This document shows, in pieces, positions 60,420 to 64,000 of a DNA stretch of 64,000 nt (the stretch's first letter is position 1; each line of letters opens with the position of its first letter). The position numbers were made by a program, and so were the translations under genes. Under the pieces are notes generated by a model. It did not search any database. It was not told the DNA's origin and saw only the letters and a program-made list of their open reading frames with translations. This DNA is from Hoyosella rhizosphaerae (lineage in GTDB: Bacteria > Actinomycetota > Actinomycetes > Mycobacteriales > Mycobacteriaceae), in contig NZ_BMJH01000001.1 of the NCBI RefSeq assembly GCF_014643175.1, forward strand, positions 1,277,926 through 1,341,925. Direction: 5' to 3'.

Positions 60420-61091
60420 GTGGAATCGCCGCGCGACCGTATTCGCTCAGCCCAGTTGTATCTTTGCACCGACGCCCGCCGAGAACGCGGGGATCTTGCT
60501 GACTTCGCAGAAGCTGCATTGTCTGGTGGCGTAGACATCATTCAGCTGCGCGACAAGGGTTCAGTTGGCGAGAAACAGTTTGGGCCCATGGAAGCTCAAG
60601 ATGAGCTCGCCGCGCTTGCGGTTCTCTCCGCAGCTGCCCATCGGCACGGAGCCCTGCTGGCCGTCAACGACCGAGCAGACATCGCCTTAGCCGCACGAGC
60701 TGACGTTCTGCACCTCGGCCAGCGCGACCTGCCCGTGCACTACGCACGAAGCATCGTCGGGAAAGACACAGTTATCGGGCGGTCCACCCACGATGCCCAC
60801 CAAGCAGAATTTGCAGCACACGAACCTGACATTGACTACTTCTGCGTCGGACCGTGTTGGAGCACCCCCACGAAGCCTGGTCGCACGCCCGCAGGTCTCG
60901 GCCTGGTGTGTGTCGCTCGTGACATCGAAACTGAACGACCGTGGTTCGCTATCGGCGGCATCGACGAGACACGTGTCTCGCAAGTGGTGGGGCACGGTGC
61001 TCAACGAATTGTGGTGGTCCGCGCCATCACTGAGGCCGATGATCCACACGCGGCCGCTCGCCGCCTCAAAACACAACTTCCGGCGCTATGA
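60420..61091 (+). CDS. thiE: Thiamine-phosphate synthase ThiE
   Basis: 223 aa from a GTG at 60420. It couples HMP-PP and thiazole phosphate to thiamine phosphate. Motifs: [22 protein letters not shown] (Gln/Arg of the pyrophosphate site), [57 protein letters not shown] and [15 protein letters not shown]. It is divergent from thiO and lies about 45 bp from the riboswitch on the other strand; no second riboswitch was seen on the plus strand, so it may not be TPP-controlled directly. Confidence 0.94.
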
Positions 61092-61982
61092 CCCACTAGC
61101 TGCCAGCCACGCCAGGATCGTTTTTGGACCCAGCACCCGCACATCACCTGGTAGGCGCTCCTTCAAACCGCGGTCCGCGCTCACGACGACAGTCGTCACC
61201 CTGTTGGTCGCGCTCCCGTCGGCAGCACTCCCGTCAGCGCTGCGTTTCGCACGTTCGACGATGTGATCATCACCAATCCCGTCAGCGGCGAACATTGTTA
61301 CTACGCCGGTGTCGTCGAACTTTTCGATAGCGCCGCGCGCCTGACCTTCTACAACAAGTTCCGCGCCGTTAACCCACCCGAAGCCACCACCCGGTAGCGG
61401 ACAAGTAACAGGAAAAGCATGCTGAAGTTCTTGCGCGAAGGCAAGCGTGGCCCCCGCCCTGTCCCGCCACCAGCCATTGGCCCTGGCTCCTACAACATTC
61501 GCGGAGTCAACAATGAGACGTATTTGCGTCAGTTCCAGTTTGGGCCACGTCTCCGCCAAACCCGGGTGAAGCCGGTAGCCCTTAACTTGAGATTCCGGGA
61601 CCCACGCCAGCGCAATGCTTTCGCTATTACCGACGGCCGGCATCTGACGGGCAATGTCGGCGACAACCGTGGTGTACTCCCAACCTGGGACATCCTCACC
61701 CGTCGCGACGCGAGCCCGCACCCGGACATGCTTCCGAGAAATCCCCGTCTCTTCCTCAGCTTCACGCAACGCCGCATGAATTTCGGTCTCATGACTATCT
61801 CGCGCCCCACCAGGCAAACCCCACGTGTCTCCGTGATGGCACCACTGGGCTCGATGTTGTAGGAGGACAGTGGGCGCGCCGGACGCATCCGGGCTTCTCA
61901 GCAACAAACCTGCTGCCCCGTGCTTGCCCCACCGGCGTACGCCATGAGACCCAACAACCCACCCATCACCGTCGCCACGCAT
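61086..61982 (-). CDS. Nudix hydrolase fused to a C-terminal NYN/PIN-like domain (MutT3 locus)
   Basis: 298 aa from the ATG at 61982 ([19 protein letters not shown]). The Nudix box is [23 protein letters not shown] (about residues 61-83), so a Nudix core is intact. After about residue 150 a second domain follows: [22 protein letters not shown] (catalytic-Asp loop of NYN/PIN-like nucleases), [12 protein letters not shown] and [19 protein letters not shown], which keep further acidic residues. Thus one protein may combine nucleotide-pyrophosphate cleavage with RNA cleavage. As I recall, mutT3 (Rv0413) is at this locus. Convergent with thiE (6-bp overlap). Confidence 0.87.
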
Positions 61983-62186
61983 CGCTGTCGAGCACCTCGC
62001 TTCCGCGGGAATCTCCCCCTCATTCCAGGGTAATTGCCAGATCTCAAATTGGTGACGATCGCGACACACCCCCCTCTGTCATGTAATGCATTACACACGG
62101 TGGAAGATGAAGGATAAAGAACCGGTTTGCGAACACAACCGTGGAACGCGAACTGTCGGCGCGAACTGATGGGGAGGTGTGGCGCG

Positions 62187-63629
62187 ATGCCCAAATCATC
62201 GGGCGCGCAGAAACACGAACCGGCATCGTTCGGGTTCAACCGATTCGGTATCGACCCGTCCGCTCCACAACCGCCCTCCGGTCAGGGCGAGCCGGAATGG
62301 CTCATGCCCAAGGCCCGAAAACCCAGCGCTCGAAAGTACGCAAAGTATTACCCGAACCAGGCGAATGTTGTGAGTGACATCGCCTCGTCGAGCCCAGGGA
62401 AACTTGTCCTCGCTGCTTTCGCTTTGATCTTGCTGTGTATTGGAGCAGGGGCGGTCACGGCATCATCGATCACCACGCGGCAGGATCAACTCGATGCCCT
62501 CATCGCCAATACGGAGCCGATCGCCAGTTCGGCACTTGAGCTCTACAGCGCGTTGTCGATTGCTGATGCTGCAGCCAGCACCGCATTCGTTTTCGGGGGA
62601 ATCGAACCGGACGACCTCAGGGACCGGTATTTGCGGGCGAACTTCGACGCGGCCCGTTCGATCGTCAACGCTTCGTCCCAAGTTGGCGATGATGATGGGC
62701 AAGCCCAGCAGCTTTTGTCAGAAATCTCCATGCACCTACCTCTGTATGCTGGGTTAATCGAGAGTGCCCGATCAAACAATCGAGTAGGCAACCCGGTCGG
62801 CGCCGCGTACCTCAACGAGGCGTCGCACATGATGCGCACACGAGTACTTCCCCAGTCTGAGGACCTGTACCGGACGCAAGCTCAGAAGGTTGCAGACTCG
62901 CACGCCACGTTCATTCATCCGCCATGGGCCGCGATCGCCACCGTCTTAGTGGTAGTGCTGATCCTTATCGGCGCGCAGATACGGTTGTCTCGAAAAACCC
63001 AGCGCACCCTGAATTTTGGGTGGGTGGTCGCAACTCTCGTGATGATCCTGGTCTTAATGTGGCTGCTCACGGTTGGGCTTTTTTCGCGCGCTGAAGCCAA
63101 CCGTGCACTAAACGAAGGAATCCGCCCACTAGACAAACTCGCTACTACCCGCATCCTCGCTCAACAGGCTCGCGCAGACGAAACACTCGGGCTTGCAAGG
63201 CGGGGCGAGGCCAGCGATATCGAAGCTAGCTTTTCTCGTGCTTCCGAAGCGGTGGCAGAGAACCTGTCCGCACTACAAGGCGACGATCGAATTTCTTCTG
63301 GCCGAGACGAGATTAATGCTGCAATTGCTGCCCACGATGGGTGGAGGCAGGCTCACGACCGGATGGCTGTGCTGTACAGCGCAGGTGATCACATTGGGGC
63401 TTCGCGTATCGCCGTCGGCGGAGGGGAGTTTGATTCCACTGCCCAGTTTGCAGCTCTCGACGACGCGCTGAGTGAGGGAATTGTCGCCACACGCGCGGAA
63501 GTTCGCACGGCCATCTTCCGCACTCGCAATGCTCTAGTGTTCGCTGCGGGCGGTGTTATCGCGCTGTCAGTCATCGCAGGCCTTGCTGTTGCCGGTGGGG
63601 TATGGCCACGACTCAGGGAGTATCAGTGA
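62187..63629 (+). CDS. glnX: GlnX-like four-helix membrane protein of the PknG signalling operon
   Basis: 480 aa from the ATG at 62187 (GGGGAGG eleven bases upstream); an earlier in-frame start (62127) has no such site. Helices near residues 70-92 (LVLAAFALILLCIGAGAVTA), 262-282 (AAIATVLVVVLILIGAQI), 293-313 (GWVVATLVMILVLMWLLTVG) and 450-472 (ALVFAAGGVIALSVIAGLAV). The two extracytoplasmic parts, between helices 1-2 and 3-4, are helical and acidic, like a sensor. In Corynebacterium and Mycobacterium, GlnX relays amino-acid signals from lipoprotein GlnH to kinase PknG, which controls 2-oxoglutarate dehydrogenase. glnH follows with a 4-bp overlap. Confidence 0.87.
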   Translation: MPKSSGAQKHEPASFGFNRFGIDPSAPQPPSGQGEPEWLMPKARKPSARKYAKYYPNQANVVSDIASSSPGKLVLAAFALILLCIGAGAVTASSITTRQDQLDALIANTEPIASSALELYSALSIADAAASTAFVFGGIEPDDLRDRYLRANFDAARSIVNASSQVGDDDGQAQQLLSEISMHLPLYAGLIESARSNNRVGNPVGAAYLNEASHMMRTRVLPQSEDLYRTQAQKVADSHATFIHPPWAAIATVLVVVLILIGAQIRLSRKTQRTLNFGWVVATLVMILVLMWLLTVGLFSRAEANRALNEGIRPLDKLATTRILAQQARADETLGLARRGEASDIEASFSRASEAVAENLSALQGDDRISSGRDEINAAIAAHDGWRQAHDRMAVLYSAGDHIGASRIAVGGGEFDSTAQFAALDDALSEGIVATRAEVRTAIFRTRNALVFAAGGVIALSVIAGLAVAGGVWPRLREYQ

Positions 63630-64000
63630 CGCGTATTGGTGCTCTGCGCAAGATCACGCTCGCCGCGGCGTTAGTAGTTGTTACCGCGACAAGTTGCGCA
63701 GCACCGTCAGAAGTGCCAGGGATCCCCCCGACGTATCCACCGTTACCGCTGCCGAGTGGCGCTGAAGTTGTGCCACACCCTGCGACGGTCGAGCCGCCGC
63801 CGAGTCTCGATTGCGACCCGACCGCCAGCCTGCGGCCGTCGGCTCCCAACCCGCCGCCGGGGGAACTTCCGCCCGACAACCCTGTCGCTGAGATCTACGA
63901 ACGGGGGCGCCTCATCGTCGGGCTCGATGCGGGTAGCAACCTTTTCAGCTTCCGCGATCCGATTTCTGGGGATTTGGTTGGATTCGATGTGGATATTGCC
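63626..64000 (+). CDS. glnH: GlnH-like amino-acid-binding lipoprotein (3' end outside window)
   Basis: 125 codons are inside the window. GTG start overlapping the glnX stop (GTGA). Signal peptide with lipobox ATSCAAP (Cys near residue 23), then a Pro-rich stretch of about 60 residues, then the start of the periplasmic binding domain (EIYERGRLIVGLDAGSN, FSFRDPISGDLVGFDVDIA), which is the classical amino-acid-binding-protein N-terminus. In mycolata, GlnH senses Asp/Asn/Glu-type amino acids for GlnX-PknG. pknG is expected directly downstream of the window. Confidence 0.92.
   Translation, partial: MTRIGALRKITLAAALVVVTATSCAAPSEVPGIPPTYPPLPLPSGAEVVPHPATVEPPPSLDCDPTASLRPSAPNPPPGELPPDNPVAEIYERGRLIVGLDAGSNLFSFRDPISGDLVGFDVDIA

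Follow-up and report, generated by a model that had tools for sequence, protein, structure and literature searches.

RenU (MSMEG_0790/Rv0413) is a mycobacterial Nudix hydrolase, formerly annotated mutT3, that in Mycobacterium smegmatis is a protein of approximately 17 kDa and hydrolyzes NADH, FAD, and ADP-ribose but not NAD+ (PMC4401782). According to the accessible part of that report, the enzyme prefers NDP-X over NTP substrates, its old MutT3 annotation is wrong, and mutation of E74, E77, and E78 yields a dead enzyme, RenU-DEAD (PMC4401782). M. smegmatis RenU co-purified with the ribosomal proteins L13 and L16 and with SmpB, as detected by mass spectrometry, with further confirmation for L13 only, and the RenU pathway is required in mycobacteria for oxidative stress resistance and biofilms as well as, in Mycobacterium tuberculosis, for survival in macrophages (PMC4401782). 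In this published PknG-L13-RenU redox system (RHOCS), PknG phosphorylates Thr11 of L13. A second relevant enzyme is Bacillus subtilis Rae1/YacP, a PIN/NYN-fold protein; the accessible text of two reports describes Rae1 as cleaving mRNA in the ribosomal A site (PMC6613710, PMC12320835). In eukaryotes, NYN endoribonucleases have likewise been described, in sources available in part, as cooperating with the Nudix decapping machinery, human MARF1 with DCP1:2 and Arabidopsis DNE1 with decapping proteins (PMC6294520, PMC10226599).

Here, we describe a gene of the actinomycete Hoyosella rhizosphaerae in which relatives of the first two enzymes appear to be joined in one chain. The gene lies in a 64,000-nucleotide stretch of DNA (RefSeq assembly GCF_014643175.1, contig NZ_BMJH01000001.1, forward-strand positions 1,277,926 to 1,341,925), hereafter the window, in which all coordinates below are given. 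We consider it probable, with moderate confidence, that the product is a RenU-type Nudix hydrolase carrying a C-terminal Rae1/YacP-like PIN domain with predicted endoribonuclease activity, as judged from sequence comparison and structural modeling. We regard the fusion as a novel form of a known enzyme rather than a new kind of system. The preliminary description of this locus knew of no described function for the fusion. No description of it was found among titles and the first lines of abstracts on Nudix/NYN or Nudix/PIN fusions, Rae1, RenU, mutT3, and DNE1/MARF1, a literature sample from which subscription papers were mostly absent, nor did we find a catalytic assay for any member of the family to which the C-terminal domain belongs; the Nudix half, in contrast, has a described orthologue in RenU.

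The fusion gene is read on the minus strand from an ATG at 61982 to a stop codon ending at 61086, as a single chain of 298 residues (Table 1). A GTG at 62069 would give a longer frame of the same open reading frame; the ATG is preferred because relatives likewise start with MRGDGDGW at that position (five of five aligned rows). The complete Nudix box noted in the preliminary description is intact (G59-x5-E65-x7-R73-E74-A-E-E77-E78-x-G80). At the top of 55 PDB matches for the fusion protein stands RenU (6uuf; E 4.8e-46, residues 1-150), and the second-best Nudix match is a CoA pyrophosphatase (E 0.0022). In a residue-by-residue alignment, the 167-residue 6uuf chain has alanine at the three catalytic positions, which fits the published E74/E77/E78 dead mutant. 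All three positions are glutamate in the window protein, and their numbering is the same as that of the catalytic residues of M. smegmatis RenU. The Nudix half is thus, by sequence, an orthologue of mycobacterial RenU, with catalytic numbering and a position beside glnX-glnH-pknG in common; the 6uuf chain stops after the Nudix domain and has no PIN domain, whereas the fusion has one. The proposal that the protein sanitizes damaged nucleotides finds little support, given that the accessible text of the RenU paper calls the MutT3 annotation wrong (PMC4401782).

Table 1. Features of the renU locus in the window and of related RenU tails.
Feature	Residues	Coordinates	Strand	Remarks
renU-type fusion gene	1-298	61086..61982	(-)	298 aa; start conserved in relatives
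Nudix domain, RenU orthologue	21-140	61563..61922	(-)	Pfam NUDIX E 1.3e-13
Nudix box	59-81	61740..61808	(-)	read from sequence
Predicted Rae1/YacP-like PIN domain	~153-296	61095..61526	(-)	profile, AlphaFold2, VIA-align, Foldseek
VDSANVVG, strand 1 motif		61488..61511	(-)	D159 aligned with Rae1 D7, N162 with Rae1 N10
WWRDR signature	171-175	61458..61472	(-)	hallmark of domain family; absent from aligned Rae1 stretch
Window form of RTVxLPxGxFGW segment	191-203	61374..61412	(-)	strict pattern missed
E212, acidic position	212	61347..61349	(-)	aligned with Rae1 D53
D238-D239	238-239	61266..61271	(-)	D238 aligned with Rae1 D81
D270 of SADRGL	270	61173..61175	(-)	aligned with Rae1 D104
thiE, convergent neighbor		60420..61091	(+)	TIGR00693 above cut-off; 6-bp overlap
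glnX, divergent neighbor		62127..63629	(+)	NF058618 above cut-off; start as called with the ORF, may be later
glnH-type solute-binding protein		63602..64000	(+)	SBP_bac_3; runs past window, then pknG
Decayed RenU tails with RTVxLPxGxFGW				L018, L019, L020, L021, L023, L025, L026, L027, L030, L031, L033

The adjacency to glnX-glnH that had been pointed out holds and was incomplete, as these two genes are part of a pknG locus. In the organism's own genome the order is thiO(-) thiE(+) renU(-) glnX(+) glnH(+) pknG(+), with a model match supporting thiO as well as thiE and GlnX. The pknG product carries PknG_rubred, Pkinase, and PknG_TPR domains, and its top PDB match is a pknG chain (2pzi, E 2.7e-237); what is presumably an ackA-like gene lies further on. 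The thiE-renU-glnX-glnH-pknG order recurs in three Lolliginicoccus species and in Hoyosella altamirensis (L005-L008), where the fusion is also present. As known for RenU genes, renU adjoins the glnX-glnH-pknG genes and shares an intergenic region with them.

The second domain had been proposed to be NYN/PIN-like on the basis of acidic motifs in the C-terminal half. Those motifs are present, and ten residues (D159, N162, G165, G170, W171, W172, R175, D238, D270, and L273) are invariant in 54 aligned related C-domains, which argues that the motifs are more than chance. The fourth acidic position, E212, is glutamate in 46 and aspartate in 11 rows of an earlier alignment, together 57 of its 58 rows; removal of four short or decayed rows (L057, L018, L019, and L025) from that alignment gave the set of 54. 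The window's C-domain alone matched no Pfam or NCBIfam model, so the domain's kind is visible only from the family profile and from structure. Consistent with this, neither the window protein nor its C-domain is listed by the Pfam model NYN_YacP (PF05991) at E<=10, and a search of the whole genome with this model returned a match elsewhere only, below cut-off. At E<=1, 34 of the 54 related C-domains do match NYN_YacP, the best of them at 3.6e-12; that of the window is not one of them. The domain search suggested in the preliminary description was thus silent for the single sequence and succeeded with the family: a profile of the 54 C-domains compared with 177,635 PDB sequences finds B. subtilis Rae1/YacP (5mq8/5mq9) first, at E 3.4e-4. 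In the profile alignment, D159, E212, D238, and D270 fall on Rae1 D7, D53, D81, and D104.

Structure prediction points to the same relative. In a full-length AlphaFold2 model built from five sequences, 12 of 15 ten-residue blocks from residue 151 onward have pLDDT values of 77-89, with dips to 61, 39, and 57. The Nudix half of this model is poor (block means 27-53), and the arrangement of the two halves is therefore left out of our conclusions. By VIA-align against 999 PDB chains, the closest match of this model is Rae1 (5mq8; Z 14.8, rmsd 2.5, 125 residues), and the next other protein among the matches listed is ExoIX (Z 8.3). The domain modeled alone has a mean pLDDT of 82.3 and a pTM of 0.80. 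Among its 282 Foldseek hits listed at E<=10, only three reach E<=1e-3, all of them Rae1 chains, with TM-scores of 0.58-0.63 by query length; ExoIX, PRORP, and SMG6 are further PIN-fold matches. Both fold searches report their best matches only, and no weight attaches to families missing from them. In the VIA-align alignment, the model spans Rae1 from residue 1 or 2 to residue 133, in chains of 159 or 174 residues; the window protein ends at that point, leaving the rest of Rae1 unmatched. Rae1 and the C-domain have the fold and the acidic residues in common but only 12-17% identity, and Rae1 lacks both WWRDR and a Nudix fusion. Sequence profile and predicted fold thus confirm that the C-terminal half has a Rae1/YacP-like PIN fold, the nuclease fold whose absence from structure predictions had been named as grounds for abandoning the proposal. 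Both halves are maintained as protein under purifying selection, as judged from dN/dS values in three Lolliginicoccus species pairs (0.08, 0.11, and 0.13 for the C-domain; 0.08, 0.06, and 0.09 for the Nudix half).

The fusion occurs in actinobacteria, as the preliminary description had surmised. Among 201 genomes of the source organism's family, 198 have a RenU-type match at E<=1e-20 and 115 a C-domain match at E<=0.001. The C-domain is fused to or directly follows RenU in 71 genomes and lies elsewhere in 42, and both arrangements are found in none of these 113 genomes with a strong C-domain (Fisher p 7.7e-10, kinship ignored). This count omits two of the 115 matching genomes, G020 (E 9e-9) and G359 (9e-8), together with weak second matches in G006, G014, G402, and G424 (E 2.6e-6 or weaker), and joins two pieces in G448; the search scored 21 candidates per genome, and a second copy could escape it. 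For genus g4, a match within 412 bp was counted as "fused", with a single frame in the two loci read (L081 and L082). In both of these RenU proteins, an additional insert several tens of residues long follows approximately residue 100 of the Nudix domain, before the PIN domain, and match gaps in other g4 genomes suggest the same insert there. The fused state occurs in nine genera of the family and the separate state in ten others. A match spanning both halves (residue <=12 to >=278, counted by hand) is present in 15 of 130 order genomes from outside the family, as well as in G314, a genome of the same class (L039). In G056, also outside the family, a second partial C-domain match on another contig is a possible exception to the mutual exclusion. 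The C-domain itself was matched in 86 of 150 genomes of an order sample at E<=1e-10 and, in a search with the single window domain, in 28 of 296 genomes of a phylum sample. No relative was confirmed among 96 pattern matches when viral contigs were searched with the C-domain profile, and this test gives no sign of a phage link.

The separate actinobacterial PIN proteins bear a GSxPDGWWRDR signature and belong to the same domain family by profile. Inspection of the neighborhoods of a set of these genes by eye revealed no evident common neighbor, with frames uncertain in this GC-rich DNA; one separate copy (L076:3314-4858) adjoins an SRP54/Ffh-like gene, named by eye. A quick tree of the C-domains, built on 128 columns and with 37 of its 76 inner branches open, places the 18 fused copies of the family opposite all 57 separate copies and four fused ones found beyond the family, across a branch with an SH-aLRT of 92; the fused/separate label needs five changes on it. 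We set aside the possibility that the family's separate copies are relocated fused domains, as the two groups lie on opposite sides of this branch of the quick tree. The fusion outside the family may have a separate origin, to judge from the same tree.

In many relatives the C-domain appears from sequence to be partly or wholly lost. Across 51 distinct RenU orthologues from the family and the order, near copies included, the full C-domain is present in 19, a shorter or degenerate tail of at least 28 residues in 17, and fewer than 28 residues in 15. One of the short tails, L079, is counted there only by a frame break, with Nudix and PIN parts in neighboring frames, and reflects either a disrupted fusion or a sequence error; it is labeled separate in the C-domain tree. 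L083 (G007) and L089 (G037) have a long, strongly divergent C-terminal half that lacks the nuclease motifs. None of the 17 decayed tails retains VDxAN or WWRDR, and 11 retain the segment RTVxLPxGxFGW. This segment is also present in eight of the 19 full fusions, all from the family, and is absent from the four full fusions outside it and from all 57 separate copies. The strict Nudix-box pattern was found in 41 of the 51 orthologues, the ten misses including the full fusions L029, L078, L081, and L082, in which the Nudix half may be altered. The simplest reading of these patterns would be that the fusion is old in the family, with repeated loss of its nuclease part, and that an RTVxLPxGxFGW hairpin serves the Nudix half. 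The other ground named for abandoning the proposal, absence of the acidic residues from most homologues, did not apply to the 54 aligned C-domains, which keep them. Many RenU orthologues, however, no longer have the domain or its motifs.

This decay bears directly on the possibility that the PIN-like domain is catalytically silent and acts as an RNA- or ribosome-binding module, or as a structural part of the Nudix enzyme. Part of the domain seems valuable without the catalytic motifs, since RTVxLPxGxFGW is kept in 11 of the 17 tails that have lost them, and the ribosomal partners of M. smegmatis RenU, of which L13 alone was confirmed further in the accessible account, would suit a binding role. 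The acidic positions, however, are kept across the 54 aligned C-domains, and the domain is located away from RenU in 42 of the 201 family genomes. A silent domain is, in our judgment, unlikely.

A role in RNA 5'-end processing, raised in the preliminary description as decapping, would have the Nudix half strip the cap or a pyrophosphate from an RNA that the PIN half also cuts, a one-chain counterpart of the decapping/NYN partnerships. The MARF1 and DNE1 systems show that Nudix and NYN proteins can cooperate, but their partners act in trans and include a different Nudix enzyme, so that they offer an analogy only. FAD-capped RNA is known, and an enzyme that cleaves FAD might be thought to act on it. 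The nearest solved Nudix relative of the fusion protein is nevertheless RenU, with RppH and Dcp2 chains in the PDB matching at E 0.1 or weaker only. The substrate range reported for RenU, cleavage of FAD, sparing of NAD+, and preference for NDP-X over NTP, lends this role little support, and neither RNA nor capped RNA is among the substrates in the accessible part of that report (PMC4401782). We therefore regard 5'-end processing as quite improbable. It is very improbable that the PIN half acts on DNA as a flap or 5' nuclease, despite the presence of ExoIX and T5 5'-nuclease among its next structural neighbors, or that unrelated housekeeping genes were joined incidentally in the fusion: the Z gap to Rae1 is 6.5, the domain has only 143 residues and, judged by length, little space for extra flap-nuclease parts, and the fusion is kept in nine genera of the family and recurs beyond it.

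If the favored reading of a RenU-type hydrolase with a Rae1-like endoribonuclease domain is correct, the Nudix half would cleave NADH, FAD, and ADP-ribose, by analogy with published M. smegmatis RenU. D159, E212, D238, and D270 of the C-terminal half would bind a divalent metal, and this half, given its predicted fold and residues, would cut RNA endonucleolytically. Both activities could act together in a PknG-linked redox or nutrient stress response, in which cofactor pools would be cut and mRNA trimmed simultaneously. Against this stands the finding that M. smegmatis RenU, which has no PIN domain, still works with PknG and L13; the nuclease is thus not required for the described pathway. Nor need both halves be active everywhere, because the nuclease motifs are missing from many orthologues and four of the 19 fusions fail the strict Nudix box. 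The pathway itself does not transfer simply to H. rhizosphaerae, as Thr11 of L13 is replaced by valine. In the organism's own L13 (L133:1465-1908), positions 11 and 12 are Val and Ser; the closest solved L13 chains (5v7q, 7kgb, and 5o60), which we take to be mycobacterial, have Thr11-Thr12. The PknG phosphosite Thr11 is, by sequence, absent from H. rhizosphaerae L13, and Ser12 could substitute for it.

For a metabolic enzyme, it is unusual that RenU should be linked to a ribosomal protein. Many relatives have RenU joined to a domain that, among solved structures, is closest to an endonuclease cutting mRNA in dependence on the ribosome, and the M. smegmatis protein is a reduced form. This suggests that the ribosomal-protein contact of RenU may survive from an earlier role in cutting RNA. 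Action at the ribosome, although speculative, is worth testing, because Rae1 cuts A-site mRNA and L13, L16, and SmpB co-purified with M. smegmatis RenU. An improbable but attractive extension is a redox-gated, ribosome-associated nuclease, in which the RenU half would read the NADH, FAD, and ADP-ribose state and dock on the large subunit, the Rae1-like half would cut A-site mRNA, and mycobacteria would have lost the nuclease and kept the ribosomal-protein contact. If this were true, a single protein would, in many actinobacteria, link the turnover of redox cofactors to a selective shutdown of translation.
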